DNA of 64,000 bases from Lepidostoma basale (taxonomy: Eukaryota; Arthropoda; Insecta; Trichoptera; Lepidostomatidae), in assembly GCA_022606425.2 (NCBI GenBank), contig JAHDVF020000874.1:310001-374000 (forward strand). Reading direction: 5' to 3'. How positions within the stretch are numbered: the first letter of the stretch is position 1; every line of letters begins with the position of its first letter. A model generated the notes under the pieces. The model did no database searches and was not told the origin of the DNA. It saw nothing but the letters and a program-made list of their open reading frames with translations. Positions 686 through 61,920 of this stretch are shown here, piece by piece. Position numbers and translations under genes: made by a program.

Positions 686-730
686 TATCAACTGATGAAG
701 GGCTTGTGTGTCCGAAACATGTTTTTTTTA
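686..730 (+). ncRNA. Hammerhead-like motif, family beta (degenerate)
   Basis: CTGATGA at 692-698, one extra A, then a weak stem II (GG at 700-701 with CC at 712-713), GAAA at 714-717 and ACATGTT, which gives a 2-bp stem III (AC..GU) with predicted cleavage after 723. Stem I is only two A-U pairs. It lies in a repeat whose 3' part (about 800-840, 'acacaaagtaatggcgaat') recurs near 18310-18350, 40850 and 42880. Core matches are seen in the sequence; ribozyme activity is inferred and doubtful for this copy. Confidence 0.45.
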
Positions 731-854
731 ATCTTTATTACTCACTTTTGAGTGTTGTATACAATGTATTATATATAAAAAAGAAACATTAAGCATCTAC
801 AACACAAAGTAATGGCGAATATATAAGAAATTATGTAATTGTTTAAAAATATTG

Positions 855-1395
855 CAGTGGAATGGGGAATGTTGTAATTACATAAAGCGTACGCTTAACC
901 CAACCAATGACAGGTCATAAGTCCTGTAAACACCTTGATCATCCATGTTCAGTTTCCAGTTTACGTCTTCGTCTCTATTGAGATACAATTAAAATTTGAA
1001 TTAACCACCCTTTGGTGTAAATCCAGGATTTCGTATACAGGTATAAGTATACATTCACAAATATTTGTTCTTCAAATATTCTGGTCAAATTCTTTGGCAT
1101 ATAGAATGGAATAATACTCCTAGCGGCTTCTAACAATATGTTAGGCGACAGCCTTCGCATTGTGTTAATAAGGTAGTTTGCTAAATGCCGAAAATCATTC
1201 TCCATAGATAGTGGGTCGGTTGTATAGGTTAATTCTTGAAAAAATTCACAAGTGCAACCAAATCTACATAGATGGCTGACTGAAACTGACACGTGAAGAT
1301 AAATATGGATTTTGAAGTATATATATATACATCTTCCAAAAATTTGTCATGCATGATCACAATAACAAAGGTGGAATGGGGAATGTTGAACAATT
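855..1395 (-). repeat. Repeat family F, unit bounded by direct repeats
   Basis: A dispersed non-coding repeat found about ten times in this window. Read on the minus strand it contains 'ttgtatctcaatagagacg', a hairpin ACAGG..CCTGT with the phrase 'gacttatgacctgtc', 'cattccccattccacc' and 'acgccatctatg'. Here one unit of about 0.5 kb is flanked by the same phrase 'aatggggaatgttg' at about 863 and 1376, as if cut from a head-to-tail multimer. The 105-codon open frame inside it has no recognisable domain. Class unknown: MITE, SINE and Penelope-like LTR are all possible. Confidence 0.7.
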
Positions 1396-2200
1396 AAAAT
1401 AAAAATATTGCGTTTGCCCGTATTTTAGGAAACCGTAAATTTGACACCCCCGTATTTTATCTTTGTGTCAACAATCAAACTGAAGTACAGGTATACAAAC
1501 AGTTGTTATGATACGAATACAGTTGATTATTTACTCGTTCCAAAGCGGAAACTAATGTGAGATGACGGAATTATAGCGTACATAGAAGGTAGACGGAGAA
1601 CAACCCATTTCAACTTATCACCGGCCTGCAAACTTTGGTAGGAAAACATTAAATTTGATGTTCAAAGGGCAGGCAGACATTTCGTGAAATTATAAAGCCG
1701 TAGTCTCTTCTTACAAAGGTCCTTTGAAAAGTTTTCTCAGCTTTATTGACAAGACGTTCACGTGGGTAGTTGAGAGATGGAAATCTTTTGTATCTTAGTA
1801 ATTGTACGTACTCCGAAGTTCCGCTTTTTGATTGTAGTCGTTTTATCGCCAGACTTCTTAAGAATGGGGAAACTTGACGTTTAAGGAAATGTCTCCATGA
1901 ATATTCAAGAAATTTAATGCGGTCAATTCATCTTGCCTTACTGCACTTAGCGTGAACTGGATTATAGCAATTAAATTCTTATTTTTAAGTGAGAATTTTC
2001 TCCCCACTGCCGATAAGAAACAGAAAGTTTCCCTTTGCAAAAAGTTAATTTATGTATTAAAGATAAAACGGCAAATTTAAAAACATAGACTTTGAACAAT
2101 TGCAATGGCATTATAAAAATCTTCTAGTGAAAAATAAATATTAACATTTTTTACTCTCATATGAAGCACATTATTTGTAACATTAAAAAAGGAGATTGAC
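1396..2200. other. No gene recognised
   Basis: AT-rich sequence with only short open frames and no family signature that I can identify. A 60-codon minus-strand frame near 1858-2040 has no recognisable motif. Confidence 0.5.
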
Positions 2201-2204
2201 CTAA

Positions 2205-2770
2205 AAAATGTGAAGTGTTTTAACATTGTAGCATATCGCACGCTAAATAGTAAACTAACCGATTATGGTTTAGGTCATAATTGAGTTATCATTAGACAGA
2301 GGCTTGTGTTAACGCTATCCATCTATTTTTCACAATGTTAACGCTATCCATTCGTAATACGATAATGGTTCACAATGTTAACGCTATTCGTACGTGTTTT
2401 TCGACTGTTTTTGTTAAAACACCGACTCATGTCAGATTGAGCAAAACTAGCTTTTTTGAGTTAAGCCAGTGTTTTATTAAGCGTGCGATACATACAAGTT
2501 CCAACAATTTGTCAGACGTGGTGGTCGTAAGAAGGGCAAATGGGGAATGTTATTAACATAAAGTGATCGCTTAACCCAACCAATGACAGGTCATAAGTCC
2601 TGTAAACGCCTCGACTACGATAGTCTGTTTCCAAAAAAAAAAAATACAATTTACATCTTCGCCTCAATTAAGATACAATTAATCCTTAAAAATGATTAAC
2701 CCGCGATGGGTAAAATCCAGTATCTGTCTACATTTTTGTATGTATTTGTATACATTAAAAAAAAACGAAT
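2205..2770 (-). repeat. Repeat family F, rearranged, with a short tandem repeat
   Basis: Minus-strand F sequence: 'gaagtgttttaacattgtagcat' type text near 2211 and the conserved block with the ACAGG/CCTGT hairpin near 2585-2610, ending in 'tgtatttgtatacatt' near 2760. Inside, the phrase 'gttaacgctatcc' is repeated at about 2308, 2337 and 2377, replacing the single 'acgccatctatg' of other copies. The 73-codon plus-strand frame at 2335-2556 is made by this repetition and is not judged to be a gene. Confidence 0.65.
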
Positions 2771-3735
2771 TAACCGTCGCGTTGCCATGTGGTCAATTGA
2801 GTTTCCACTGCCAATTTAAAGTTGATTTTCTTAAAACCTATGAACCCTAATATTATAAAAAAAATTGTAATCCTCCATTGAAGTGTTCTCAATATTTCGT
2901 AATAAAAAAAAAAGCAAAAAATTACTTCCTTCATCCCAAAAAAAAATATTTTCTAAGACTGCCCTCACCTTCATTCGTGTTAAGGTAGAATTTGTTTTGC
3001 TAATATTTACAACTTTATCAAAAGTGACAAATACTTACTCGCTGTTTTGAACGTATTATAAATCATATCTTTGGCTTTTTCAATAGGTACGTAATAATAT
3101 CGACTGTTGATGGAAACGCAGAACGCAACTTAATAATATCAGAACTGTGAAAATATTAACACTTTACCAAAAGGGACAAATATTAATACGTACTCGTTGT
3201 CTTGAACGTACTATACATTTTGCCTAGGTGCCTTTATCATACGTAAAATCTCGTAATGTCTCGCCTCGCCGGCTGCGGCGCGCAGACAAGTTTATACCTG
3301 ATGTCTAGTCGATCGTATGCTGTGACGCATTCCATATCAGAAATCGCATGGTTCCAGAAAAAAATTAATAATGATATGTTTTTCAAATAATCCATGTATG
3401 TTATAGATATCGATCTATTCCTAATGAAATTCCCTACAAGATGACATAAATTAAATTTTGATTCATTTAGTCATATGCTTGATATTTAGATAAAGTTAGC
3501 GGTAAACTGAACTTACCACATGGGAGCAAGCGTTTTGTTTTGAACACGGTACGTTAAGGGTTAAAAAAATAATACACTAAACACTCTTTTGTTTTTCTAC
3601 TAGTAGAATATTAAATTGTATTATTTTATTGTACACTGTAAAAAGCCTAATGGGTTTAAGCACTTGTATCAGTATACGAGTAGAACGGAAAATTAACATT
3701 TTCAAAAATTAACATTGAATTCAGAATTTTATATT
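2771..3735. other. No gene recognised
   Basis: AT-rich, many homopolymer A runs, no open frame over 60 codons. A short GC-rich island at about 3260-3295 (ctcgccggctgcggcgcgc) stands out but has no assignable function. Confidence 0.5.
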
Positions 3736-3739
3736 ATTT

Positions 3740-3945: not shown

Positions 3946-4019
3946 CAATTCTTAAAGATGAAATCTGAAACAATGAATTTTTAAATGCATTTTTTACAAG
4001 TTTTTCTTTGTTTAGTATT

Positions 4020-4245
4020 TATTAAATATTAAGACCTGAAGATAGCGGTATCCTCCGTATATATCGTTATTTTTAATATTTTGTGTATTATAAACAAATT
4101 TTTTTACAATTTCCAAATAATGAAATAAAACGATTTTTGTCAGTCTGTCGATGCCAGCAAGCCAGGTGAAACCGGTCTCTATCGAAATAAAGTCAAAAGT
4201 GGTAGGAGTCAATGGGAAAATCATCGTTTTATTCAATTATTAATA
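4020..4245 (+). ncRNA. Two hammerhead-like units, gamma (decayed) then epsilon
   Basis: Gamma: CTGAAGA at 4036-4042, followed by stem II remnants and 'ccgtatatatcg', where GAAAC is lost. Epsilon: CTGTCGA at 4145-4151, extra T, GCC..GGT stem II, GAAAC at 4168-4172 and CGGTC with cleavage predicted after 4177. Upstream 'ttttgtc' (4135-4141) can pair with downstream GACAAAA-type sequence in other epsilon copies. Both units end in the shared text 'caattatt(a)ataata' seen in related copies. Inferred non-autonomous retroelement fragments. Confidence 0.5.
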
Positions 4246-4569: not shown

Positions 4570-5135
4570 CAATTCAATGTATCAGGCCCATAATGACTTA
4601 CGCAATCGAAGCAAGGACGGACACTGTCAGAACGAAACATGCAGAAGAACAGCAGAAATGAAAGCATTGCGTCATTTCTGCTATTCCATTTCATTGACCA
4701 CCTTTGTGGCCGAGTGGTAAGTGCATTACGGCCACCCCGAAGGTTCCGGGTTCGATTCCCGGCGAGGGTAGTGTAATTGTCACACTGTCCTATGGTCTAG
4801 TGTAGAATTCACGTGACAATAAAATGGCGATAGATTAGCTACCTATCACATGTCACGAGAATCTTTATGATAACTATAATAATACCCTTTACATCGATTT
4901 GGCTCATACTGTCATGATGTAAAGAGTGATTCAACAAAATAAAAATAAATAATATCGTGGGAAGAACCCTTGAAGATAGGTACCTTACGAAAATATTCAC
5001 AGAACCTACAAAATTGATGACATAGTGAGATAGAGTATGCAAATAAGACAATTGTGGAGGGACTTCATTGAGACGATGGACCCAGAGAGAATTCCCAATA
5101 TCGTGATGTACAAGACTCCAGAGGGCTCATAGAAT
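4570..5135 (+). pseudogene. LINE B C-terminal fragment, split by a SINE
   Basis: Plus-strand frames read ITYAIEARTDT.RTKHAE, then after an interruption KIDDIV, RLWRDF and MDPERIPNIVM..TPEGS. These match the tail of the same LINE at 13617-13965 and 30842-31240, which lies after the reverse transcriptase domain and ends in a GRPPKRW motif. A tRNA-SINE sits inside it (4702-4890). 5'-truncated, frameshifted and without a GAA tail. It is a non-functional remnant. Confidence 0.7.
4702..4890 (+). mobile_element. tRNA-derived SINE
   Basis: The head resembles a tRNA gene: A-box-like 'gtggccgagtggtaagtgc' and B box 'ggttcgattcc', ending in 'cggcgagggtag'. The body continues 'gtaattgtcacactgtcc', 'gaattcacgtgacaataaaa', 'tggcgatagattagctacc'. 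Other copies at 17453, 28445, 31980 and 59410 (minus) share both parts. Transcription by RNA polymerase III from the internal boxes is the usual mode for such SINEs. Inserted in LINE B. Confidence 0.85.
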
Positions 5136-5884: not shown

Positions 5885-6440
5885 ACATTTAATGGGAATG
5901 ACATGAAGCAGCTACAATGGCAGTGCACAATGGTGTTCTTCTACCGACCCTTATGTATGGAAGCGAATCATGGAACTAGAAAAAGAAGAATGAAAGTAGA
6001 ATAAATGCAGTAAAAATGAGATCTCTTAGACAAATGTGCGGATACTCTGTGTATGATAGAGTGTCGAATGAAATTATAAGAAGTGAATGCGGTGCGAATG
6101 ATGGTGTTATGAACAAAATAATGAAAGGATCATTAAGATGGTTTGGACATATAAAAAAAAAGAATGAATGAAGAAAGAATGGTAAAAAAATTATATGTTA
6201 ACGATGTAAATGGAACCAGAAATAGAGGAAGACCGAGGAAAACGTGGCACGATCAAATAAATCAAATTTTGAATGTTGGCCATGTGAGGAGTCAGAGAAA
6301 TCGACGCGCGTGCATGACATGATGTATGAATGTTGAGGAAGCGAGAGAAATATGTCAGGAAAGAAAAGTGTGGCAGTCCATTCTTTCTGCTTACCCCTTC
6401 GGGGAGACGGTGTGATGGTTAGTTAGTTAGTTAGTTGGGA
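5885..6440 (+). pseudogene. LINE A 3' fragment with (TTAG)n tail
   Basis: Reads AVHNGVLLPTLMYGSESWN, MRSLRQMCGYSVYDRVSNE, SECGANDGVMNKIMKGSLRW, FGHI, RMVKKLYVNDVNGTRNRGRP, RKTWHDQINQILNVG, with an A-run frameshift in the GHMERM segment near 6150. Ends 'gagacggtgtgatggttagttagttag', the LINE A terminus. The 5' edge abuts a theta-type sequence ('atgggaatgacatg'). Close relative of the copy at 60795-61445. Confidence 0.85.
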
Positions 6441-8639: not shown

Positions 8640-8880
8640 TTATTCAAAATGTTTTTTAGGACCCTGGGAAAATTCGTGTTACTCGTATCTCTGTACCAAC
8701 GTTTCGGAGAACTTTGCAGTCTCCACCTATGACTATAAATTACATGTTACTCGTATCTCCGTGGTCAGGGAGGTCATAATCACCCTGAAGATAGAGACTG
8801 CAATGATCTCCGAAACGCCGGCCTAGAAAGACGAATTACATGAATTTTCCCAAATCCCAAAAAACGTATTGCTACTAACC
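8640..8880. repeat. Hammerhead-like family delta, inverted pair
   Basis: Two arms, about 8650-8735 (minus) and 8785-8872 (plus), are reverse complements of each other around 'tacatgttactcgtatctcc'. Plus arm: CTGAAGA 8785-8791, extra T, stem II AGAGA..TCTCC, GAAAC 8812-8816. Minus arm: stem II GGAGA..TCTCC, GAAAC at 8701-8705, then GTTGGTA giving AC..GT, but its CTGAAGA is mutated. The family recurs at 61865-61899. Confidence 0.6.
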
Positions 8881-15720: not shown

Positions 15721-15959
15721 ATTTATGGCGCTTACCACGTAGTATTCGGAATAAATTGAAATTGCATAGAGAAAAGAAATATCTTTTGCACTATGTATTT
15801 AGTTTTATTCCACTTGATTTTTTATTTCGGCCCGCTGCATCTAAAATTCTTTTAAAAAGTACTATCATGAAATTTCAATTAAAAACATTAATATTTTAAA
15901 GTTGCATAGGTTTATAGTATTTCATTTCGTATCCTAACATAATAATTAAATACAACGTT

Positions 15960-16115
15960 GTATTTTCAATAAATACTTTCACGTTTTGTCTTTATTTTAA
16001 AAGCGAACGGTTTCGCCAGGCTCGCTGGCAGTCTGTCATGGCCAGCGAGCCTGGCGAAAACAGTCGCTGTCGAAATAAAGACAAAAGTGAAAGTATTTAA
16101 AAAACATCGCTTTAT
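15960..16115. repeat. Hammerhead-like family epsilon, palindromic pair
   Basis: Arms of about 60 bases meet near 16036: 'actttcacgttttgtctttatt' at 15976 pairs with 'aataaagacaaaagtgaaagt' at 16074-16095, and 'cgccaggctcgctggc' with 'gccagcgagcctggcg'. Both orientations contain stem II GCCAG..CTGGC and GAAA(A)C with CGTTC or AGTC after it. Neither copy retains a complete CUGNNGA, because the arms meet inside it. Confidence 0.7.
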
Positions 16116-16334
16116 TTAATTTTTATTTAAACATAATTAGAATTTATTTACACTCCCGTTACACATATATTTTCTTCTGTTAATTCACTTTTCTTATTTA
16201 ATTTAAAAAAGAAGCTTGTTTAATTGTTTTCACTCTCATTGTTTTTTAACTACCCCTAAAAGTACACAACCCATTTAATTAAGTATAAATTTCAAATGTC
16301 ACTATTGCCAACCATTTTGTATGAAAATGAAGCT

Positions 16335-16475: not shown

Positions 16476-16494
16476 CTCACCATCATGAAAATAA

Positions 16495-16910
16495 AACTAA
16501 CTACGTAACCAACCATCACGCCTTCTCCCTGAAGGGGTAGGCAGAAATAATGGACTGCCACACTTTTCTTTCCTGACATATTTCTGCCGCTTCCTCAACA
16601 TTCATACATCGTGTCATGCACGCGCGTCGATTTCTCTGACTCCGCACATGGCTGACATTCAATATTTGATTTATTTGATCGTGCCACGTTTTCCTCGGTC
16701 TTCCTCTATTTCTGGTTCTATTTACATCATTAACATATAATTTTTTACCATTATTTCTTCATTCATTCTTTCTATATGTCCAAACCATCTTAATGATCCT
16801 TTCATTATTTGGTTCTTGACACCATCATTCGCACCGCATTCACTTCCTATATTTTCATTCGACACTCTATCATACACAGAGTAACCACACATTCACATTA
16901 TGGAAATAAG
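16495..16910 (-). pseudogene. LINE A 3' fragment
   Basis: Minus strand: CGYSVYDRVSNENIGSE, CGANDGVKNQIMKGSLRWF, then RNRGRPRKTWHDQINQILN and RRACMTRCMNVEEAAEICQ, ending at (GTTA)n complement near 16497. A few frameshifts and a lost GHMERM segment near 16770. Confidence 0.8.
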
Positions 16911-17880: not shown

Positions 17881-18149
17881 ATTTTCTAGATACTTTAAAG
17901 GATCTTACGGATCAAAATAAGTTTGACAATAATGATGCAATAATTGAGGTTACGAAAAGTATTAGAAAAATTAATTAATTAAAATGAAATAATCATTGCT
18001 CGTATAAACATGTTTCCTCAGCAGTTTTTGTGAATTCTTGTTTATTTATTTTTATTTGGTAAAACACCATTATAAATAATAATGTAAACGCGAATGTTTT
18101 CACTGTTTTACAAAGATTTTTATTAATTTATATAATATACAATATACAA

Positions 18150-18360
18150 ATATAAATACTTAATGTTTCTTTTTTATATACCTTGTATGCAACACACACT
18201 TTATGTTAAAAAAAAATTAAAAACCAAACATGTTTCGGACACACACGCCCTTCATAAGTGATTGTATATAAATAATAAAAATATTTAAAAAAAACACGAA
18301 TATTATTTTAATAAACTTCCGCAACACAAAGCTATGGCGAATATACAAGAAATATAAATA
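18150..18360 (-). ncRNA. Hammerhead-like motif, family beta (degenerate)
   Basis: Minus strand: CTTATGA (18252-18258, one change from CTGATGA), extra A, GGGC..GTCC stem II region, GAAAC, ATGTTT. The flanking 'cttccgcaacacaaagctat' block at 18308-18328 is the plus-strand sequence shared with 800-820 and 42880, so here the two family parts point in opposite directions. Confidence 0.45.
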
Positions 18361-18409
18361 CTCGTTGCAAATATATATCGCCTTGCGAGGGCATTTTCAA
18401 ACTCAGAGA

Positions 18410-19469: not shown

Positions 19470-19513
19470 AATATCACGACATGTTTCGGAGAAGACCTCC
19501 ATCTTCAGATGTA
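19470..19513 (-). ncRNA. Hammerhead-like ribozyme motif, family gamma (complete core)
   Basis: Minus strand: CTGAAGA (complement of 19502-19508), extra T, stem II GGAG..CTCC with loop GTCTT, GAAA, stem III AC..GT with AT between, C17; predicted cleavage follows the base at 19478. Stem I is ACAT with GTGA (three pairs then a mismatch). Core residues of the hammerhead consensus (CUGANGA, GAAA, UH) are all present apart from one extra base before stem II. Family member at 55936 has a perfect stem I but a mutated GAAA. Best gamma candidate for activity. Confidence 0.6.
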
Positions 19514-20974: not shown

Positions 20975-21026
20975 TATTTTACGACAGGTGTTTCATCAAC
21001 CAATGTTGACATCATCAGGTGTTACA
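20975..21026 (-). ncRNA. Hammerhead-like ribozyme motif, family alpha (complete core)
   Basis: Minus strand: CTGATGA (complement of 21012-21018), extra T, stem II GTCAAC-ATTG-GTTGAT (six pairs, closing G-U), GAAAC (complement of 20990-20994), ACCT, GTC with cleavage predicted after the base at 20983. Stem III is AC..GU. Stem I beyond the first two pairs (C-G, A-U) is weak. Core is intact except for the extra base before stem II. Confidence 0.55.
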
Positions 21027-24289: not shown

Positions 24290-24425
24290 CCGGGTAATTC
24301 TAAAGTTTTAAAATATTTCTTCTGTATTCACCATCACTTTGCGTTGTGCTTTCACATTTGAATATCTTTTTTGAAACATTGTATTATTTTGAACTTTTCA
24401 CAATCATGATTCGGGACACTGAAAT
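24290..24425 (-). repeat. Family beta fragment, hammerhead core deleted
   Basis: Minus strand begins 'tttcagtgtcccgaatcatg', i.e. the end of beta's stem II, a mutated GAAAC and stem III, with CTGAAGA and the first half of stem II lost. The downstream 'acattgtattattttg' and 'caccatcactttgcgttgtg' complement match the copy at 40840-40920. Confidence 0.55.
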
Positions 24426-24439
24426 TTTACATATAAATA

Positions 24440-24985
24440 TAACTAACTAACCATCAAGCCGTTTCCCCGAAGGAGTAGGCAGAAATAATGGACTGCCACA
24501 CATTTCTTTCATGTCACATTTCTCTCGCTTCCTCAACATTCATACTTATGACATTTAAACATACAATTTCATTATAAATAAAACACTTGTTTTTTAACAC
24601 TTGAGTATAATATTTTAAACGACTAGTTTCAAGCTACAGATGCTTCCATCTACAGGTTTCAATATAAACTTCCGAAACTAGTCAATTAAAATATAATACT
24701 CAAGTGGTAAAAAACAAATGTTTTATTTATAATTTAATCATGTCCTACCACAAAATGAATGTCGAAACATTGAATAACATACAATTTCATGATGTCATGA
24801 CTCCTCACGTGGCCGAAATTCAATATTTGATTTATTTGATCATGCCACGTTTTTCTCAGTCTTCCTCTTGTTCTAGTTCCATTAACATCGTTAACGTTTA
24901 CTTTTTTTTACCATTCTTCCTTCATTCATTCTTTCCATGTGTCCAAACCATCTTAATGATCCTTTCATTATTTTATAACTTTAAA
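24440..24985 (-). pseudogene. LINE A fragment interrupted by a foldback element
   Basis: The LINE A terminus starts at 24448; text EEARE..HERNVWQSIISAYSF on the right-hand side of the gap continues with INQILNFGHV-type text from 24800 to HMERMNEGRMVKKSKR near 24930 and KMVWTHGK. The gap 24558-24790 holds the foldback insert. LINE sequence between MNVEEA and the RNRRAC segment is lost. Confidence 0.75.
24558..24790. mobile_element. Foldback element with 15-bp direct repeats
   Basis: Bounded by identical 15-mers aacatacaatttcat at 24558-24572 and 24776-24790. Inside, 24573-24635 and 24683-24745 are inverted copies ('ttataaataaaacacttg', 'cttgagtataatatttta'). Minus strand of the left arm reads CTGTAGA..GCTTGAAACTAGTC, plus strand of the right arm ends CCGAAACTAGTC, so both arms carry the hammerhead-like 3' half GAAAC-TA-GTC. 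Inferred to be a complete insertion with its target duplication. Confidence 0.75.
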
Positions 24986-25209: not shown

Positions 25210-25262
25210 AATTCATACACTGAAGAAGGGAAGTTTGTGACCCGAAACATGTTTGTGAAAAG
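25210..25262 (+). ncRNA. Hammerhead-like ribozyme motif, family beta (complete core)
   Basis: CTGAAGA 25220-25226, extra A, stem II GGG (25228-25230) with CCC (25241-25243), GAAA 25244-25247, stem III AC..GT with AT between, H17 = T25253. Stem I: TACA (25216-25219) pairs with TGTG (25254-25257), including one U-G. All catalytic-core positions match apart from the extra base. The copies at 41507 and 40956 (minus) keep the same stem I, so the pairing is conserved in the family. Confidence 0.65.
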
Positions 25263-28329: not shown

Positions 28330-28915
28330 ATAACTAATTAACCATTACGCCGTCTCCCCGAAGGGGTAGGCAGAAAGAATGGACTGCCACACTTTTCTTT
28401 CCTGACATATTTCTCTCGCTCCCTCAACGTTCTTCGTGGCAGACGACCTTCGTGGCAGAGTGGTTAGAAGCTCTGACTTCCATATCGAAGGTCCCGGGTT
28501 CAATTCCCGGCGATGGTAGTGTGATTGTCACATTGTCTTTGGTCTGGTGTAGAATTCACGTGACAATAAAATGGCGATAGATTGGCTACCTATCACATGT
28601 CATGAGAATCAATATAATAGCTGAAAAAATAAATTGTATACAGTAATTGGGTTCAAACGACCTGTTGTATACAAAAAAAAAAAAAAACATTCATATATCG
28701 TGTCATGCACGCGTGTCGATTTCTCTGACTCTTTACATGGCCGCCATTCAATATTTAATATATTTGATCGTGCCACGTTTTCCTCGGTCTTCTTCTATTT
28801 CTAGTCTAGTTTGCATCGTTAACGTATACTTTTTTTACTATTCTTTCTTCATTCATTCTTTCCATGTGTCCAAACCATCTTAATAATCCTTTCATTATTT
28901 TGTTAGCTAGCTGGT
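28330..28915 (-). pseudogene. LINE A 3' fragment split by a SINE
   Basis: Minus strand: IMKGLLRWFGHMERMNEERI, VKKVYVNDAN, RRPRKTWHDQIY, RRACMTRYMN on the right side of the SINE, and EGARE..QERKVWQSILSAYPF on the left side, ending at the complement of the tail near 28332. The SINE (28433-28690) divides 'aacattc'. Confidence 0.85.
28433..28690 (+). mobile_element. tRNA-derived SINE, full length with poly(A)
   Basis: A box 'gtggcagagtggttagaagc', B box 'ggttcaattcc', body 'gtgtagaattcacgtgac', 'tggcgatagattggctacc', 'gtaattgggttcaaacgacc' and terminal A13. Target repeats aacgttc / aacattc flank it in LINE A. The first 20 bases 'ttcgtggcag' are partly duplicated at the 5' end. Confidence 0.88.
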
Positions 28916-32829: not shown

Positions 32830-33010
32830 AAACTTTTTTCTATAAATATCACAATTGATTATATTTTGCTGTTTTGCTAACCGATGTGAGCTTCGTCAGG
32901 TCTTACAATCAAATGACCTCATTGATTGATCAAATAACCTGGTGATTGTAAGGCCTGACGATGCTAACATCAATTGTGATTTTTATAAAAAAAGGTTATT
33001 TTATTTAAAT
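32830..33010. repeat. Hammerhead-like family alpha, inverted pair
   Basis: Left arm (minus): CTGACGA, extra A, GCTCAC-ATCG-GTTAGC stem II, then AAAAC (G12 lost). Right arm (plus): 'gcctgacgatgctaac' at 32953 leading into 'atcaattgtgat', where the second half of stem II is deleted. Arms meet around 'gacctcattgattgatcaaataacctgg'-type sequence near 32916-32941. Confidence 0.6.
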
Positions 33011-40569: not shown

Positions 40570-40695
40570 AAATTATAATTTATGGGAATGATACATTTCA
40601 CAAGTCTAAGGCATTATCAAATTTTTGATAATGCCTTAAGTAGGCAAAACATTCATTCGTCATTATTATAAATTATAATAAAATATATTAAATTT
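40570..40695. repeat. Hammerhead-like family theta, inverted pair
   Basis: Centre 'aaggcattatcaaatttttgataatgcctt' (40610-40640). Minus: UUGAUAA, extra U, GCCUU.., GUGAAAUGUAUC then ATTCCCATAAA; stem I AAU/AUU. Plus: UUGAUAA, extra U, GCCUUAAGUAGGC, AAAACATTC. Both have U3 and A8 in place of C3 and G8. Confidence 0.6.
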
Positions 40696-40839
40696 AAGTA
40701 TTTTTTTTTCATATTAAATTTAAATGAAACAGAAAAACCAGAAATAATTGTGTTAAGATGAAAAGCAAATGAAACCCAAATTATTTTTTTTCAGAATGAA
40801 AATGTATTTTTAAAGCAATTGTACTTTCCTTTTCTTCTA

Positions 40840-41010
40840 TGTTCGCCATCACTTTGTGTTGTGGATTCACATTTGAATAACTTTTTGGAAACATTGTATT
40901 TTTACAACACTTTTTTGCACTTTTCACAAACATGTTTTGGGACACAAACTTTCCTTCTTCAGTGTATGAATTTTAATAGTTAAATGAAAGAGAGTTATTA
41001 CTTCCATACT
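40840..41010 (-). ncRNA. Hammerhead-like motif, family beta, left arm
   Basis: Minus strand: CTGAAGA (complement of 40956-40962), extra A, GG-AAAGTTTGTGT-CCC stem II region, AAAAC (G12 mutated), ATGTT then TGTG; stem I TACA/TGTG retained. Inverted relative to 41440-41600, 500 bases away. Confidence 0.55.
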
Positions 41011-41439: not shown

Positions 41440-41605
41440 TTAATTTATTTCCCCTGTCTTATAATGAGTTATAACTCTCTTTTATTTAATTGTTAAACTT
41501 AATACACTGAAGAAGGGAAGTTTGTGTCCCGAAATATGTTTGTGAAAAGTGCAAAAATGTGAAAATACAATGTTTCGATACAATGTTGTCTTTTTAATTT
41601 TTTGG
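41440..41605 (+). ncRNA. Hammerhead-like ribozyme motif, family beta, right arm
   Basis: CTGAAGA 41507-41513, extra A, stem II GGGA (41515-41518) with TCCC (41527-41530), GAAA 41531-41534, TATGTT, stem I TACA (41503-41506) with TGTG (41541-41544). The longest stem II of the beta copies. Position 15.2 is U, giving U-G with 16.2, still pairable. Confidence 0.62.
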
Positions 41606-42370: not shown

Positions 42371-43145
42371 TATTTAAAAGGGCTTTCCTTCAAGATATCT
42401 CAACAAAATCATTTGATTATTTGAGAGTTCATGTTAAAATTTGTACATGAAGCTTAGGTTGAGGCTGCATAAAGGTTGGATGGAACCAAAATATTTCTGC
42501 AAAAATAAAAAGAATGTTTTGTGAAAATACGAAGTGTTATTCAATCTATTCAAATGTGATTCCAAAACATAACGTGTAGGCGAATATAAAAGAAAAATAA
42601 TATACATGTTTTAAATGTATGAGTATTGTTGTTTAACTTTTAAGAGTGTATTAAATTTGAATAAATCTAGTTACACTTTGTATTACAACACGTTTTATTT
42701 TTACTGAACTCAGACATGTTTCAGTTACAAGTAACGTTTATCATTGTAAACAATTAAAAAAATTAAAATAAATTTAATAGGTTAAAATTGTATAAATTGA
42801 TAAAGATTGCTTGTATAAAAATAAAAAGTGTTGTAATACAAAGTGTTACTATATTTATTCAAATATGAATCCACAACACAAAGTGAAGGCGAATATAGAA
42901 GAAATTCTTAGTGTATTAAATTGTTCGTATTATTTATATTTAGTGACAGATATGAATAAATCGTCCGCTTTATAAAAAATGCAAACTCTAATGGAAGTAA
43001 TTTGTTTTGACTTGTTGTGGGATGTCAAATGCAAAAAAAGTTAAATCGTAATTTATGTACGTTATCAATACTAAATTATTTAAAAAAAAGCTAACCTTTA
43101 ATCATATTTTTGTTATGTTTAAAGTTTTCTGTAGGTAAACAGAAT
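42371..43145. repeat. Beta-family flanks; otherwise unassigned
   Basis: 'tattcaaatatgaatccacaacacaaagtg' at 42858 and a diverged version at 42551 match the block beside beta units at 40850 and 24340. Minus strand at 42700-42745 reads 'aatgataaacgttacttgta' then ACTGAAACATGTC, a hammerhead-like 3' half with stem GTTAC/GTAAC and a poor core. Confidence 0.5.
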
Positions 43146-43149: not shown

Positions 43150-43435
43150 TCAGTGTAATAGTTATAATAATAAACGTGAATGTTTAATGGTTTTACTATG
43201 TTTTTATTCATATAATCTCTAATACAAATATCAGTTACAAATTTGTTTCGCCTTGCGAGGGCATTTTCAAACTGCCAAAAGCAGCAAACATTTTCAAAAG
43301 CAGTTTGAAAATGCCCTCGCAAGGCGAAACAAATTTGTAACTGATATTTGTATAAGAGATTATATGAATAAAAACATAGTAAAACCATTAAACATTCACG
43401 TTTATTATTATAACTATTATAATGGAGTTTTACCA
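43150..43435. repeat. Hammerhead-like family eta, long palindrome
   Basis: Arms of about 125 bases, 43154-43281 and 43305-43430, nearly perfect reverse complements. Each arm carries the same unit: stem I CAGU..ACUG, UUGAAAA, extra U, stem II GCC-CUCGCAA-GGC, GAAA, stem III AC..GU within ACAAAUUUGU, H17 = A. On the plus strand: core 43305-43311, GAAA 43326-43329, cleavage after 43339, stem I 43301-43304 with 43340-43343. Identical peptide text in frames of both strands is only a consequence of the palindrome. Confidence 0.7.
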
Positions 43436-43439
43436 AACT

Positions 43440-44115
43440 AAAACCTCGACAATTAATAATATCAGTGTAGGTTGTAGGTACAACCCATAAAAGCACACCC
43501 ACGAATGGAGAAATTCAGAACAAAAATATAATCCGCAGCGCTAATGAAAGACGCAACATTTTTCTCTTCTTTTGACGTGTCCTTCTGCCGGGCGAGTACG
43601 CGAAAGATTACAAAGCGTAAACACAATAACAAAGGTTGCTGCAACGATTTTCTCATCACATGACGTCACACGCTCTCGTGTTACGTCACCGCACCCTTTA
43701 CCATTCTCGCCCTCTGCTAATGTGAATTCTTTTTTTGGAGAATAAATTACTGCATCGGATTATGAATAAAACTAACTTATAATATTATGTATAATATTCC
43801 GAAATAGAAACGTTTTAAAAAGTTTATTTACATTAACACAGGATAGTAGAATATAATAAAATTATTTTGTTATTATTCCATATCTTTGCAGTTCTAATGG
43901 ATGGAAAAACGAATAAGGCGACGCCAACCAAATGGACCAAGATATATAATATATTATATTTAAATTCAGTAATAATAAAAACATAAGAACGAAATTTTCA
44001 AACGTTATGTATTAATATGTCACCTATAATAAAATAACATTGATACCGATGTTTGATTTCAGTAAATTAAATTTTACATAATTATTTCCAGATTATTTTT
44101 GTATAGAATCAAGTT
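43440..44115. other. No gene recognised
   Basis: Slightly GC-richer part at 43560-43700, with a 65-codon minus frame of no recognised motif. The remainder is AT-rich. Confidence 0.4.
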
Positions 44116-44119: not shown

Positions 44120-44260
44120 ACCCTTGATCTGTATGTATATAAAGTACTCAGTTTGCAAAAGTGTCACCAGTCTGTCGATGCCAGCGAGCATGGCGAAACC
44201 GGTCGCTGTCGAAATAAAGTAAAAGTGGAAGTAGTCTGTTATTGAACTGGTATTCGCCAA
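44120..44260 (+). ncRNA. Hammerhead-like motif, family epsilon
   Basis: CTGTCGA 44172-44178, extra T, stem II GCCA (44180-44183) with TGGC (44191-44194), GAAA 44195-44198, stem III AC..GT around CG, C17 = 44204. Stem I: CAGT (44168-44171) with GCTG (44205-44208), one U-G pair. A6 of the consensus is U in every epsilon copy, so either the family tolerates it or all copies descend from a defective parent. Confidence 0.55.
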
Positions 44261-44514: not shown

Positions 44515-45090
44515 AATCCTAAATATAAATTAGAATTAAACACTTTTAAAAACGTTGTATTATATAAAACTACTTTAATTTGAGTCAGGAGCGTCAATCG
44601 GTTTCACTTTGTAACGAGCTTCGTCAAGGCGTCAAAATAAAGTGGTTATGTACAACGTTTTTAAAAGTGTTAAATAACTAACTAACTAACCATCACGCCG
44701 TCTCCCCGAAGGGGTAGGCAGAAAGAATGGACTGCCACACCTTTCTTTCCTGACATATTTCTCTCGCTTCCTCAACATTCATACATCGTGTCATGCACGC
44801 GCGTCGATTTCTCTGACTCCTCACATGGCCGACATTCAATATTTGATTTATTTGATCGTGCCACGTTTTCCTTGGTCTTCCTCTATTTCTGGTTCCATTT
44901 ACATCATTAACATATATTTTTTTACCATTCTTTCTTCATTCATTCTTTCCATATGTCCAAACCATCTTAATGATCCTTTCATTATTTTGTTCATGACACC
45001 ATCATTCGCGCCGCATTCACTTCTTATATTTTCATTCGACACTCTATCATACACAGAAGTGTTAAATTCTAATATTAAATATGTCAAACG
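44515..45090. repeat. Foldback element containing a LINE A insertion
   Basis: Arms 'aattagaattaaacacttttaaaaacg' (from 44530) and 'cgtttttaaaagtgttaaa' (44656) plus 'ttctaatatta' (45068) pair once the LINE is removed. The centre (44588-44635) reads on the minus strand UUGACGAAGC..GUGAAACCGAUUGAC, a relative of the hammerhead-like units. Hence a foldback interrupted later by LINE A. Confidence 0.75.
44676..45056 (-). mobile_element. LINE A 3' fragment with 11-bp TSD
   Basis: The 11-mer aagtgttaaat flanks it at 44665-44675 and 45057-45067. Minus frame: VYDRVSNENIRSECGANDGV, MNKIMKGSLRWFGHMERMNE, ERMVKKYMLMM (frameshift in a T run), then TKENVARSNKSNIEC-type text and RRACMTRCMNVEEAREICQE. It ends in (AACT)n complement at its left. 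One complete insertion, 5'-truncated. Confidence 0.9.
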
Positions 45091-45775
45091 ACCAAATAAA
45101 AGCTTCTTTCCAAAGTCTTAAATTAGAATTAATATTTTTAGGAAAACTATGTTATTTCATTACAATAATAGTTTATTTACAATTATTTTTTTTGAAATAT
45201 TGATGTATTATGTTTACACTTTTATTAGGTAGAATTATTTTATCATTATGAAGTATATATAAAATTTATATCATTCTTCCAAAGATGAAGGTAGATAGAA
45301 AGATGAAGAAGTCGACATACATAAATAGTTTCAAATGAAAAATGTTTTAATTTATATATTTAAAAAAAACGGATATCTTTATCATCTTTACATTCCGACC
45401 AGAGCAAAATTAAAACATTCAAAATGATTTTTTTGAAAATAAATTCAAGCCACCAATTTGGTTCTAAACGATGCGCTGCAGTAAGAAATTATTTTGGATT
45501 TCAGTAATGCAGAGTTATCCGGGAAACAGAATACTGCAAAGTTAATAAGAAACGAACTGTTTCTCTAGAAAGTACACAAGCCACAATTTCCATACTAATG
45601 CCTGCCTGTATGTAGGTCACTGACTATTCACAACTTGTAGGCAAGCTGAAAAAATGTAAAAAGCGCACGCTACAAAAATAAACTTGCCCAAGAAAATGAA
45701 ACAAAACAAAAAGGAGAGAAAATTATAATACATTAAAAAATATTTAATGAAAACTCGGTTTTACAATTAATGTGT
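45091..45775. other. No gene recognised
   Basis: AT-rich; nothing identified. Confidence 0.45.
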
Positions 45776-45779
45776 AAGA

Positions 45780-45900
45780 ATTTACAAATACTTGTTACAA
45801 ATTTGTTTCGCTTTGCAAGGGCATTCACAAATTCAAATGTCCTCGCATGGCGAAACAAATTTGTAAAAAAATATTTATATATTTTTATGTATAAATGAAA
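45780..45900. repeat. Family eta, short palindrome
   Basis: 'acaaatttgtttcgctttgc' (45798-45817) pairs with 'gcatggcgaaacaaatttgt' (45846-45865). Each arm holds GAAACAAATTTGT; the UUGAAAA core is partly retained in the plus arm as 'attcaaatgtcc'. Much shorter arms than at 43150. Confidence 0.6.
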
Positions 45901-47849: not shown

Positions 47850-48250
47850 TTAACATTCAAAACACTGTTATATATCACAATTTATTTTCATTTAGAGAGT
47901 GTCGCGACAGCTGTTTCGCCCACCGATGTTTGAATCATCAGGTGTTACGATAAAAAGTTACAAATGAAAAGACTGAAAAGAGGCAAAAAACTCATTAGTG
48001 TGGTTAGTCATAGTAAAAATTGAGTATTATTTAATTAAATGAAGTATATTTCGCAAACTTAATTTTTACTATGACTAATCACACTAATGAGCTTTTGCCC
48101 TATAAATAGTAAGTCTTTCATTTGTAACATTAGTTTATTGTGACACCTGATGATACCAACATTGGTTGGCGAAACAGCTGTCGCAACACTCAGTAAATAA
48201 AAATAAATTGTGATTAATAACAGTGTTTTAAATTTTAACAGTAACAATTT
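47850..48250. repeat. Hammerhead-like family alpha, long foldback
   Basis: Arms 47860-48030 (minus) and 48060-48245 (plus) with a short loop near 48031-48058. Plus arm: CTGATGA 48147-48153, extra T, stem II CCAAC-ATTG-GTTGG (plus A/C ends), GAAAC 48171-48175, AGCTGTC, cleavage predicted after 48182. Minus arm: CTGATGA (complement of 47935-47941), weaker stem II, GAAACAGCTGTC (to 47906). Both keep the full core text; stem I is only partly paired. Confidence 0.65.
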
Positions 48251-48254: not shown

Positions 48255-48320
48255 ATTTAATTCTATAAAATTCTTGCAACAACTGTTTCGGCAACCAATG
48301 TTAGCATCATCAGGTCTTAC
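48255..48320 (-). ncRNA. Hammerhead-like motif, family alpha, single
   Basis: Minus strand: CTGATGA (complement of 48307-48313), extra T, GCTAAC-ATTG-GTTGCC (five of six pairs, one C-C mismatch), GAAACAGTTGTT. The shared end text 'aaataaataaattgttac' follows. It lies head to tail with the foldback at 47850-48250. Confidence 0.55.
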
Positions 48321-49939: not shown

Positions 49940-50030
49940 GCTAATTTGATAATGCCTTGCAGGCGACACATGTCATTCACATAAAATATAATAAAACTTT
50001 TAGAAAACAGACGTTTTCATTGGTATTAAA
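49940..50030 (+). ncRNA. Hammerhead-like motif, family theta
   Basis: TTGATAA 49946-49952, extra T, stem II GCCT (49954-49957) with AGGC (49961-49964), GACA in place of GAAA (49965-49968), stem III AC..GT, C17 = 49974. Stem I AAT (49943-49945) with ATT (49975-49977). Then the theta flank 'cataaaatataataaaac'. U3 and A8 replace C3 and G8. The A13 change probably inactivates this copy. Confidence 0.55.
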
Positions 50031-50283: not shown

Positions 50284-50910
50284 ATATTAAGTGTGCTTCC
50301 ACTTGTATTTAGACAAGACTAAAGACTAAAGTCTTCAACCAGTGCGTTTTGCCAGTCATGATGTACGGAGCCGAGACGTGGACATTGACAAAAGGTCTAG
50401 TCTACAGATTCAAGGTTGCCCAGCACGCCATGGAAAGAGCCATGCTTGGAATAACCTTGAGGGACAGATTTAGAAACGAATTTATTCGACAACAAACCAA
50501 GGTGACTGAGGTGGCTCTACGGATATGTGGGCTGAAATGGCGGTGGGCTGGCCATATTTGTCGGAGAACCGACAGCCGATGGGGAAGACGGGTTCTGGAG
50601 TGGAGACCGCGTACAGGATTCCGTAGAGTTGGACGTCCCCCTGCCCGCTGGACCGACGATCTGAAGAGGATTGCTGGACATGGATGGATGGGAGCGGCAA
50701 TGGATAGGGGGCGGTGGCGGGCTTTAGGAGAGGCCTACATTCAGCAGTGGATGACAGACGGCTGATAATGATGATGACTTGTATTTAACGTCGACGGGTT
50801 TCGGCAGCTTGCTTATATCTTTTGATCATAGATGCCCCCGAAGATGGCAGCAAGCTGCTGAAACCGGTCGCCGTTAAACACAAGTGGAAGCAACCTTAAT
50901 ATATAAAAAT
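50284..50910. repeat. Hammerhead-like family zeta foldback with nested RTE
   Basis: 'tatattaagtgtgcttccac' (50284) pairs with 'gtggaagcaaccttaatata' (50883). Without the LINE the arms are contiguous with 'cgacgggtttcggcagcttgc' (minus unit) and the plus unit CCGAAGA 50838-50844, extra T, stem II GCAGC-AA-GCTGC (50847-50858), GAAA 50860-50863, CCGGTC, cleavage predicted after 50869. U4 is C, so the core is imperfect; stem I is weak. Confidence 0.65.
50312..50776 (+). mobile_element. RTE-type LINE 3' end with 11-bp TSD
   Basis: The 11-mer acttgtattta flanks it at 50301-50311 and 50777-50787. Frame 50349-50765: MPVMMYGAETWTLTKGLVYR, FKVAQHAMERAMLGITLRDR, LKWRWAGHICRRTDSRWGRR, VLEWRPRTGFRRVGRPPARW, TDDLKRIAGHGWMGAAMDRG, WRALGEAYIQQWMTDG then stop. 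The AETWTL, MLGI.LRDR, RWAGH, GRPPARWTDD and EAYIQQW motifs are those of the RTE clade C-terminus. The tail is (TGA)n. Open throughout, so the insertion is recent. It lacks the endonuclease and catalytic palm. Confidence 0.93.
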
Positions 50911-55712: not shown

Positions 55713-55924
55713 ATCTTCTGGCTTACAGAGGTTCAGCTCATGTGGCTATTCCTCTTACGTCTGATGGGAACATTGTTGGAAGGTGATTTGGTGGGTTGTA
55801 AGTTTATGCGGGGGCATGATTTGTGTGGCCCGGAGTGTTCCTCTGAAGGAGATTTGTTCCTTTGTATTGCATCGAATTTTAAATGCGTTTTTCATATTAG
55901 TCTTTGCTTGTTTAGTTTTTATTA

Positions 55925-56065
55925 CATATTTACACCTGAAGATGGAGGTATCCTCCGATACATGTCGTGTTTTTGAATATTTTGTGGATCATAAACAAAG
56001 TTATTTTCAATTTCTAAAGTGTCTTTACATAATCTAATGATTTCATTGAAATCTTTCGATATTAA
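55925..56065 (+). ncRNA. Hammerhead-like motif, family gamma
   Basis: CTGAAGA 55936-55942, extra T, stem II GGAGG-TAT-CCTCC (55944-55956, five pairs), GATA in place of GAAA, stem III AC..GT with AT between, C17 = 55966. Stem I ACAC (55932-55935) with GTGT (55967-55970), four Watson-Crick pairs. Downstream 'ttgaatattttgtggatcat' and 'ttcaatttctaaagtgt' match 19440-19475 (minus). Helices are perfect but A13 is U, so probably inactive. Confidence 0.6.
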
Positions 56066-56094
56066 ATAATAATCGATAATTGAATAAATCGATG

Positions 56095-56215
56095 TTGTTT
56101 TCATTAACTGTTTTCACTTTTGTCTTTATTTCGATTTCGTCGCTGTCAAAATAACGACAAAAGTGAATGTAGTTATTACTCGTAGAAGAAAAAATCGTTT
56201 TATTCAATTATTCGT
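56095..56215. repeat. Family epsilon mini-palindrome
   Basis: 'cacttttgtctttatttcg' (56116) faces 'aaaataacgacaaaagtg' (56148-56166), around 'atttcgtcgctgtc'. Only the outer stem I portions remain; the ribozyme-like centre is gone. Ends in 'aaatcgttttattcaattatt'. Confidence 0.6.
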
Positions 56216-57071: not shown

Positions 57072-57180
57072 TAAATAAAACGATGTTTTTTTTAACTACT
57101 TCCACTTTTGTCTTTATTTAGACAGCGACCGGTTTCGCCAGGCTCGCTGGCATCGACAGACTGGTAACACTATTGTAAAC
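57072..57180 (-). ncRNA. Hammerhead-like motif, family epsilon (best copy)
   Basis: Minus strand: stem I CAGT with GCTG, CTGTCGA (complement of 57153-57159), extra T, stem II GCCAG-CGAGC-CTGGC, GAAA, AC-CG-GT, C17 at 57127. Then 'taaataaagacaaaagtggaag' and the end text 'cgttttatttaattatt'. All three helices are intact; the only core deviation besides the extra base is A6 to U. Confidence 0.6.
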
Positions 57181-57695: not shown

Positions 57696-57699
57696 AAAA

Positions 57700-57790
57700 C
57701 ATTATTGTAACACCTGATGACGCCAACATCGGTTGGCATAACAGCTATCGCGAAAAAAAAATTGTGGTACCGTTAACAGCGTTTATAATC
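57700..57790 (+). ncRNA. Hammerhead-like motif, family alpha
   Basis: CTGATGA 57714-57720, extra C, stem II GCCAAC-ATCG-GTTGGC (six pairs, 57722-57737), then ATAAC in place of GAAAC, AGCTATC. The extra base is C here rather than U or A. The core is damaged at G12-A13. Confidence 0.5.
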
Positions 57791-57794
57791 TTAA

Positions 57795-58340: not shown

Positions 58341-58344
58341 GTGC

Positions 58345-59020: not shown

Positions 59021-59039
59021 TTTTTAATTTAGATACAAA

Positions 59040-59530
59040 CAAACAAACCATCACGCCGTTTCTTCGACGCAGTAGGCAGAGAAAATAGACCGCCACACTA
59101 TTCGATTCTGAAACACCTCTAGCTTTCTACACATACATATAATGAGTCATACACACAGGTCGATTCTTTTTTTTTTTTATTGTATACAACCGGCCGTTTG
59201 AACCCAATTATTGAATAATTATTTTTTTTGCAATTATTATATATTGACTTTCATGACATGCGATTGGTAGCTAATCTATCACCATTTTATTGTGAATTGT
59301 ACACCAGTCCAAAGATAGTGTGACGATCACACTGCTTTCGCCGGGAATCAAACCTAGGACCTTCGGTATTGTAGTCAGAGCTATAATCGCTCTGCCACGA
59401 AGGTCGTCATTCCGACTTTTAACATGGCCGACCTTTAGTATTTGATTAATTTGGTCAGGTCAAGTTTTCCTCTGCCCCCTATGACTTCGAAATCCATTCA
59501 CATCGTTAACGTATACTTTATATATGTTAT
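59040..59530 (-). pseudogene. LINE A 3' fragment split by a SINE
   Basis: Left of the SINE: terminus 'aaccatcacgccgtttcttc' and RRSIFSAYCVEET-type text; right: VKVGHVKSRN, LTKLIKY and VYVNDVNGFRSHRGQRKT complement. SINE at 59168-59412 divides 'cgattc'. Confidence 0.75.
59168..59412 (-). mobile_element. tRNA-derived SINE
   Basis: Minus strand: head 'gacgaccttcgtggcagagc', B box region 'ggtttgattcccggcg', body 'gtgatcgtcacactatc', 'caataaaatggtgatagatt', 'attgggttcaaacggccgg' and a poly(A) end (T11 at 59168-59178). Flanks attc on both sides. Confidence 0.87.
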
Positions 59531-59534
59531 TAAC

Positions 59535-60150: not shown

Positions 60151-60154
60151 TGTA

Positions 60155-60740: not shown

Positions 60741-60789
60741 AACTGGTCTAAATAATGTCTAAAATGACATGCAGGAGTATTAAAATACA

Positions 60790-61465
60790 AATATATAAAA
60801 CTAACTAACTAACTAACCATCACGCCGTCTCCCCGAAGGGGTAGGCAGAAAGAATGGACTGCCACACCTTTCTTTCCTGACATATTTCTCTCGCTTCCTC
60901 AACATTCATACATCGTGTCATGCACGCGCGTCGATTTCTCTGACTCCTCACATGGCCGACATTCAATATTTGATTTATTTGATCGTGCCACGTTTTCCTC
61001 GGTCTTCCTCTATTTCTGGTTCCATTTACATCATTAACATATAATTTTTTTACCATTCTTTCTTCATTCATTCTTTCCATATGTCCAAACCATCTTAATG
61101 ATCCTTTCATTATTTTTGTTCATGACACCATCATTCGCACCGCATTCACTTCTTATATTTTCATTCGACACTCTATCATACACAGAATATCCACACATTC
61201 GTCTAAGAGATCTCATTTCTACTGCATTTATTCTACTTTCATCCTTCCTTTGCCAGTTCCATGCTTCGCTTCCATACATAAGGGTCGGTAGAAGAACACC
61301 ATTGTGCACTGCCATTCTAGCTTTTTTGGATAGGTTTTTGTTTGCGATGACAACTTTAAGTGCACCATTCACTTTGTTTCCTGCCCCAAGCCTTCTTTCA
61401 ATATCCCTCTCCACTCTCCCATCTCTTGTAAACATACTACCCATAATACAAATATATTGTTTGCT
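60790..61465 (-). pseudogene. LINE A, longest 3' fragment
   Basis: Minus frames 61064-61474 and 60820-61110: MFTRDGRVERDIERRLGAGN, KVNGALKVVIANKNLSKKAR, MAVHNGVLLPTLMYGSEAWN, WQRKDESRINAVEMRSLRRM, CGYSVYDRVSNENIRSECGA, NDGVMNK then one A-run frameshift, MKGSLRWFGHMERMNEERMV and onward to GETA. (AACT)n complement at 60800-60818. Upstream endonuclease and catalytic palm absent. Only one frameshift, so young. Confidence 0.9.
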
Positions 61466-61469
61466 TAAA

Positions 61470-61825
61470 TACACAATGTGAAAAATATGTTTTTGATCGA
61501 ATGCATTTGGACAATATTTAAACGAACAATAACTGAAAATTCAATATTTGATGGTCAAACAGTTTCCTGTTAGATCTGGCTGGTGAAACCAGAAATTTTT
61601 AATTAATATGCAACTGTGAATTCAAACGGAACGCAAATAATTAAGCTCAATTTATAAATTGTATTTACAAACCAGATTACTGTAGGATAATTTATATATC
61701 CAATAGTTAATTAAAAAAACATTCATGTATATTTCAATATGATAAAATAAATGGCATATTTATTCACATCAAAGTCCTCTTTGTAGCTTTTCATCACATA
61801 TCTACCAATAACATAGTTTTTTTTA
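61470..61825. other. No gene recognised
   Basis: AT-rich spacer without assigned features. Confidence 0.4.
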
Positions 61826-61829
61826 GGTT

Positions 61830-61920
61830 TATTAGAAGATTCGTGTAACTTCTCCTTCTCGATTGACATTTCGGAGATCTATGCAGTCTCCATCTTCAGG
61901 GTAGTTATATATGTGTAGTG
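61830..61920 (-). ncRNA. Hammerhead-like ribozyme motif, family delta
   Basis: Minus strand: CTGAAGA (complement of 61893-61899), extra T, stem II GGAGA-CTGCATAGA-TCTCC, GAAA (61869-61872), then TGTCAATC. If stem III is AU..AU around GUCA, C17 follows; other delta copies have AC..GU at the same place, so the 15.2-16.2 pair changes from C-G to U-A. Stem I is weak (C-G then mismatch). Confidence 0.55.

Follow-up and report, generated by a model that had tools for sequence, protein, structure and literature searches.

Repeat families in a 64-kb window of the Lepidostoma basale genome appear to share a reduced hammerhead ribozyme design

Why do many short repeats in one stretch of an insect genome have the same arrangement of paired and unpaired bases, even though they fall into separate families? 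The stretch in question is 64,000 nucleotides from Lepidostoma basale (Trichoptera; Lepidostomatidae), namely positions 310,001 to 374,000 of contig JAHDVF020000874.1 in assembly GCA_022606425.2, and we refer to it as the window. A preliminary description of the window had named eight such families (alpha to theta), had compared their layout to the hammerhead ribozymes of Penelope-like elements and of metazoan retrozymes, and had viewed them as parallel non-autonomous lineages. Reduced hammerheads of Penelope-like elements were reportedly described by Cervera and de la Pena in 2014 and by Lunse, Weinberg and Breaker in 2017. As judged by sequence comparison, about ten families of short mobile-element remnants in the window share a reduced hammerhead design, and the motifs appear to belong to this known class of Penelope-type reduced type I hammerheads. 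Each motif is quite probably such a ribozyme, or the decayed remnant of one, within the pseudo-long terminal repeat (pseudo-LTR) of a short Penelope-like copy. All of the evidence on motif copies comes from this one window.

We scanned both strands with a motif descriptor that consists of yTGANRA, zero or one further base, stem II, GAAA, and a 2-bp stem III. This strict descriptor found eight sites in the window and none in each of 12 dinucleotide shuffles, which rules out a chance origin of the layout and bears out the claim that repeat families share it. At all eight sites, a single extra base precedes stem II, though the scan also permitted zero. With the core relaxed to five of six positions, there were 19 sites, as compared to 0–4 per shuffle (mean 1.7). 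Thirteen of these belong to the described families, five belong to a palindromic repeat, and one (at 1165) looks like chance. The palindromic repeat (GTATAC; TTGTGAATGTATAC..GTATACGAAAT, at 1060, 62465, 62692, 63169, and 63396) passes the relaxed scan and lacks the core, and we take it to be unrelated.

Further family members were added by BLAST and by covariance model. The scored set contains 26 copies from ten families (the names past theta, which are iota, kappa, and lambda, were coined in this analysis), and a wider list of 29 copies also includes the decayed eta 45838, alpha 32899, and lambda 40625. Seven of the eight families in the preliminary description were recognized, and the stem II sequences that it gave for alpha, beta, gamma, delta, epsilon, eta, and theta are all present. 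Copies of zeta were not identifiable, and iota (61899 on the reverse strand and 8785 on the forward strand) may be zeta. With ten families scored, the idea of several parallel families of hammerhead type is supported. Seven of the 26 copies, from five families (one alpha, two beta, one gamma, two eta, and one theta), retain every tested feature: the core CUGANGA (or its U3-A8 form), GAA, A15.1-U16.1, and C, U, or A at position 17 (H17), together with the stems. Core and stems are complete in no scored delta, epsilon, or kappa copy, and most copies in the window look inactive.

Because stem I was not part of the search pattern, we examined its pairing separately, with position 2.1 aligned beside C3 and 1.1 beside H17, over the first four positions (24 copies from eight families; kappa and lambda were excluded). 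In register, the family mean was 2.40 of 4 pairs, versus 0.88 and 0.92 at one base off register and a maximum of 1.54 over shifts of -4 to +4. Swapping the 3' arms between families gave a mean of 1.46, and 17 of the 40,320 permutations reached the observed value. For stem II, 86.5% of cells in the model alignment were paired versus 65.5% in shuffles, and covariation was 0.411 versus 0.150; none of 500 shuffles was as high by either measure, in an alignment that is itself biased towards this helix. The number of stem II pairs that changed on both sides was four, which is not unusual (85 of the 500 shuffles reached it). Overall, the earlier observation of stem II covariation between families holds. 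Since stems I and II differ among families and yet pair, selection would have acted on them while the families diverged.

Hammerheads have a base pair between C3 and G8. Twenty of the 26 copies have C3-G8, five have U3-A8, and one has a mixed form; across the window, mixed forms account for 84 of 216 yTGANRA words. The core pair 3-8 thus appears to be compensated, which supports the hammerhead fold. Perreault et al. found that natural hammerheads show this C-G to U-A exchange and that the exchanged form is active in vitro (PMC3088659). The U-A pair in eta and lambda may be one shared change.

Stem II is separated from A9 by one base and is not flush with it as in the usual type I hammerhead. 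This base 10 is T in 19 copies, A in five, C in one, and G in one, so that 24 of the 26 copies have A or T here. A single inserted base is compatible with a ribozyme, because the plus hammerhead of chrysanthemum chlorotic mottle viroid (CChMVd) naturally has an additional A between A9 and G10.1; according to an excerpt of the report, U at this position gives 3–4 fold faster trans-cleavage and C or G is harmful (PMC3705267). CChMVd is a plant viroid, however, and not a related element.

Nine families (alpha, beta, gamma, delta, epsilon, eta, theta, kappa, and lambda) each include one or more scored copies in which the segment from A15.1 to U16.1 is perfectly palindromic. An iota fragment at 8728 also has a perfect palindrome, and six other examined copies are imperfect. 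In most families, the C-G pair of stem III encloses either two bases or no base, and stem III is not closed within a single molecule; a hairpin of this size is unlikely to form, and the layout is most naturally read as pairing between two RNAs. In alpha and eta, stem III could close within one RNA. According to excerpts of PMC6466107, double hammerheads, for which Penelope-like retrotransposons are named, require a palindromic stem III loop, and the palindromes in the window would fit action as dimers. The same excerpts say that double hammerheads also need a tandem arrangement, and we saw no tandem arrangement of motif copies in the window's tandem-repeat list (22 rows).

The preliminary description had proposed a covariance model of the listed copies. 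We built two such models, both with stem II only, and ran them on the window, where they linked additional families. Model R1, whose training set was 10 copies from the alpha, delta, epsilon, and eta families, recovered gamma (E = 0.019 and 0.21) and one beta copy (E = 0.41), and it revealed two families that were outside the earlier list, kappa (E = 0.02) and lambda (E = 0.11). Since the best R1 match in 98 kb of viral contigs (chosen for carrying CTGAWGAWGG..CCGAAAC) had E = 0.5, the beta match alone does not reach significance. Theta, iota, and the remaining two beta copies had no R1 match at E up to 10. Model R2, which was trained on the 24 matches of R1 at E up to 0.5, added these two beta copies and theta 692 at E = 0.03–0.081 (theta 692 at 0.081), and it left iota unmatched in the window. 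The evidence for theta and iota is therefore the descriptor scan and BLAST. Among viral contigs, a stricter motif pattern had no matches, and the matches listed for a broad pattern look like chance.

What carries these motifs? Copies of the beta and theta type share one sense 3' end, in or near ACAACACAAAGTGATGGCGAATATAGAAGAAA, at five places (692, 40962, 24.3 kb, a decayed one at 42.5 kb, and 42.9 kb). In copies of these two types, a 32-bp tail is optional, and there are two alternative 3' ends. At theta 18258, the tail is absent from the 3' end and is inverted at the 5' end; this element sits inside an eta element, between 13-bp direct repeats (18148–18160 and 18350–18362). Some motifs are also near the center of a dyad. 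An inverted repeat that spans the motif and is centered between -30 and +5 of C3 was found for 10 of the 29 copies, as compared to 9 of 600 random sites. These ten copies correspond to eight loci: two of eta and one each of delta, epsilon, alpha, iota, kappa, and lambda. The tails, the 13-bp flanking repeat, and the head-to-head pairs point to Penelope-like elements and, along with the register of the motif, support the earlier assignment to the Penelope-type reduced type I group. The copies, which were previously called non-autonomous, may instead be solo pseudo-LTRs derived from coding Penelope elements that lie in other parts of the genome.

Near these carriers, ATGs in or close to the tails (43420–43460, 18050–18100, and 40831–40862) open short frames that look similar by eye (M-E/V-FYQ-T/I-K in eta and MANIEE in beta) and are possibly Penelope open reading frame (ORF) starts. 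The word YIGKT at 41408, between the beta arms, is one of two in six frames, and we took it as chance. We also considered whether the dyads at 43235–43340 (eta) and 15994–16076 (delta) could be microRNA (miRNA) genes. A whole-window Rfam search gave mir-9261 (E = 3.2e-11) and mir-2765 (E = 2.6e-5) over the eta and delta dyads, and restricted searches gave 35 rows for the eta dyad (miRNA families with two exceptions) and nine for the delta dyad (with one exception). These are generic long-hairpin matches below the gathering scores, and we treated them as artefacts of palindromes, which could pass for miRNA genes.

Known Penelope-like elements offer a close comparison. Excerpts of two papers report that many animal genomes have thousands of minimal type I hammerheads, usually without the non-conserved part of helix III, and that some of them lie in Penelope pseudo-LTRs and may cleave as dimers (PMC7761336, PMC6155905). 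As far as the excerpts go, the motifs in the window resemble these in being type I with almost no stem III, in their probable placement in pseudo-LTRs, in their numerous dispersed copies, and in having a palindromic stem III with putative action as dimers (PMC7761336, PMC6466107). In Adineta vaga, excerpts describe Penelope families with an optional 31-bp tail, inverted head-to-head pseudo-LTRs, palindromic junctions, and flanking repeats of 8–10 bp, as compared to 13 bp at theta 18258; unlike here, the word hammerhead does not occur in the text of that paper (PMC3846280). The element PAc (Poseidon, from Anolis carolinensis) has a hammerhead upstream of an AC-rich region where reverse transcription starts, and its tail is the stretch between two starts in an AC-rich stem loop (PMC11167929). 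The PAc cut site lies 26 bp after the start codon, and in gamma the corresponding distance from A9-T-G is 25 nt. PAc is a coding element, whereas our partial search found no coding region here. The PAc ribozyme cuts in vitro only with the element's protein present, its mutants insert as before in vitro, and RNA ends at its cut site were not observed (PMC11167929). The layout of PAc also led us to ask whether the extra base could serve as the U in a start codon (A9-T-G). This is not general: frames from A9-T-G run for 11–31 codons in gamma, delta, and alpha and stop after 4–9 in eta, epsilon, iota, and kappa, and beta and theta read AAG at this place.

How would the Penelope-like copies use such a motif? 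Stem I, the core, base 10 (A or U), stem II, GAAA, and the palindromic stem III all appear in hammerhead register across families. In most families, stem III is probably too short to close in one RNA, so two RNAs or units would pair via the palindrome to form a double hammerhead, with predicted cleavage after position 17. By analogy with the published Penelope biochemistry, reverse transcription would start in the downstream AC-rich tail, and such a start would account for the existence of two different 3' ends as well as for the inverted arms.

Several results weigh against this explanation. At least one tested feature is lost in 19 of the 26 copies, the 1.1-2.1 pair is lost in two of 26, and position 6 is T instead of A in six of the 29 copies, four of which are delta (the U6 core). 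Stem I is weak in alpha (1.6 pairs), iota (1.5), and epsilon (1.0). When monomers were folded freely, stem II was in hammerhead register for four of eight (alpha, beta, theta, and iota), and gamma, delta, eta, and kappa favored other hairpins. Co-folding of two copies gains 3.6–6.9 kcal/mol over two monomers in eight of eight tests, but since the dimers often come out as other structures in the prediction, the gain is no evidence for a hammerhead dimer. A survey of hammerheads, as excerpted, discarded hits with any mispairing beside the core and describes the discarded hits as mainly cryptic mutants in repeats (PMC3088659). Around ten other pairs, the longest shared flanking words are 6–8 bp, which is near background, so the repeats that flank head-to-head pairs give no clear target-site signal. 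No reverse transcriptase or GIY-YIG domain was found in a partial search (Pfam on 10 of the 391 ORFs of at least 50 amino acids, plus a regular-expression scan). Finally, the preliminary description had proposed that the lack of a significant hammerhead score in a covariance search would speak against the ribozyme, and for the Rfam models this is what we found in the window. These models gave no match at E up to 10 across the whole window, in a search without a Penelope positive control, nor around gamma, delta, and alpha (stretches of 51, 56, and 71 bases; also E up to 10). We do not consider this decisive because the extra base and the absent stem III hairpin depart from the canonical consensus.

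If the Rfam result is taken at face value, then the repeats might be relics of DNA transposons (miniature inverted-repeat transposable elements, MITEs) whose palindromes are sites for protein binding or cruciforms, with no ribozyme at all. The inverted arms and the tails, which resemble terminal repeats, also fit this idea. Against it, stem sequences are replaced while their pairing persists, conservation extends to unpaired core positions, and the 3-8 pair is compensated; in addition, the tail is optional, occurs on either end, and goes with two alternative 3' ends. We therefore regard MITEs as improbable. Metazoan non-LTR retrozymes, whose tandem units are non-autonomous and spread in the form of small circular RNAs, would explain why small non-coding repeats carry type I hammerheads, and an excerpt of PMC7229834 reports retrozyme-like repeats from insects among others. 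As described there, retrozymes are head-to-tail tandem repeats with mostly canonical ribozymes, and neither is seen here. No motif copy falls within any of the 22 tandem-repeat rows, and the copies are dispersed or head-to-head. A partial exception is two alpha copies (47941 and 48313) on one strand, 372 bp apart, with an opposite-strand copy between them. The link to retrozymes in the preliminary description is thus not upheld, and we consider this origin very unlikely.

The motifs could also be former ribozymes that have decayed into relics without activity in any copy, so that the layout is inherited and unselected. The 19 of 26 copies without at least one feature and the fixation of U6 in delta are in line with this. 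On the other hand, stems I and II pair despite the differences between families, which implies selection during divergence, and seven copies are intact. As regards the present-day copies, this account overlaps with the reduced Penelope-type hammerhead that we favor; as a full alternative to it, we give it very little weight.

A more speculative extension of the Penelope-type hammerhead is that the double ribozyme is part of the integration machine and that the palindromic stem III, besides cleavage, tethers two template RNAs. We put this forward tentatively, as rather unlikely. The Penelope protein would cut both target strands and prime one cDNA per RNA at the tail; both cDNAs would reach the 5' edge of the ribozyme and join there, giving head-to-head insertions. 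Dyad centers lie within 30 nt of C3 at eight loci from seven families. The PAc protein cuts and extends both target strands (PMC11167929), so the joining of two cDNAs is also possible. In this scheme, the A or U at base 10 would be an insertion that is conserved in the group and sets the rate. Arkhipova and colleagues, in the excerpt seen, attribute head-to-head pairs to self-priming on an antisense template (PMC3846280), and a limited literature search on Penelope with twin priming and inverted copies listed nothing that looks to be on this subject.

The positions of the motif copies and of related features are given in Table 1. A gamma copy followed by delta DNA occurs twice, at 3979–4242 and 55862–56212, with different spacing, which may go back to repeated insertions or to an old composite. 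Overall, the window is AT-rich (29–38% GC in 4-kb steps), with many repeats and short ORFs. A 700-bp stretch (62079–62778) is repeated four bases further on (62783–63482) with 100% identity, which is either a recent tandem duplication or an assembly artefact. Apparent short interspersed elements (SINEs) have tRNA-like heads at 4700–4770, 28446–28518, and 31984–32055; all three exceed the Rfam tRNA threshold and have common downstream DNA, and there is related DNA at about 59237–59409 on the reverse strand. A repeat family with ORF fragments like those of long interspersed elements (LINEs) occurs at 5910–6436, 16491–16894, 44672–45058, and 60799–61187, and because several of its copies are 92–99% identical, some elements in the window are young.

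Table 1. Motif copies, dyads, and tails in the window. "All features" marks copies that retain every tested feature; strand is given where a feature has one.
Feature	Position	Strand	Remarks
Theta motif (692)	687..727	+	Stem II GGGC/GTCC, stem III ACATGT; all features
Tail of theta 692	799..830	+	
Gamma motif	4031..4072	+	Decayed
Delta motif	4140..4181	+	U6 core, GAAACCGGTC
Iota dyad	8645..8871		Motif 8785 (+)
Delta head-to-head pair	15939..16126		Dyad center at motif start
Theta element	18161..18349	-	Motif at 18258; inverted tail at 5' end; flanked by 13-bp direct repeats
Eta motif	18363..18405	-	Within element interrupted by theta
Gamma motif	19471..19513	-	Stem II GGAG/CTCC, stem III ACATGT, H17 = C; all features
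Alpha motif	20978..21023	-	Stem II GTCAAC/GTTGAT, GAAACACCTGTC; all features
Tail of beta 3' fragment	24316..24347	-	
Kappa dyad	24571..24733		Motif 24655 (-), stem III ACTAGT
Beta motif	25215..25260	+	Stem II GGG/CCC, stem III ACATGT; all features
Alpha-like decayed motif	32864..32904	-	Adjoins a dyad
Lambda-like decayed motif	40607..40659		Adjoins a short dyad
Tail of beta inverted pair	40831..40862	-	
Beta motif	40922..40967	-	Left arm of inverted pair with 41502..41547
Beta motif	41502..41547	+	Right arm of inverted pair; all features
Tail of the beta and theta type	42873..42904	+	No recognized motif upstream; decayed one near 42570–42600
Eta head-to-head pair	43156..43419		Motifs 43305 (+) and 43270 (-); both all features, U3-A8
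Delta motif	44167..44208	+	Stem I CAGT/GCTG, U6 core
Eta head-to-head pair	45773..45887		Decayed
Alpha motif	47901..47946	-	Partly decayed
Alpha motif	48142..48187	+	Stem II CCAAC/GTTGG, 10.1-11.1 mismatch; palindrome ACAGCTGT
Alpha motif	48273..48318	-	Partly decayed
Lambda motif	49941..49981	+	TTGATAA-T-GCC..GGC, ACATGT; GACA replaces GAAA
Epsilon head-to-head pair	50777..50885		Motif 50838 (+), stem II GGCAG/CTGCT
Gamma motif	55931..55970	+	GATA replaces GAAA
Delta motif	57123..57164	-	Stem II GCCAG/CTGGC, U6 core
Alpha motif	57709..57754	+	Base 10 = C; GAAA decayed
Iota motif	61863..61904	-	Stem II GGAGA/TCTCC; stem III decayed

If the motifs are what they appear to be, then reduced hammerheads can be dense in a genome, with about ten families in 64 kb. 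None of them matches the present Rfam models for hammerheads, which suggests that annotation has a blind spot. At the edge of the putative ribozyme, the dyads would provide a link between the role of the Penelope ribozyme and the odd inverted insertions of Penelope elements.

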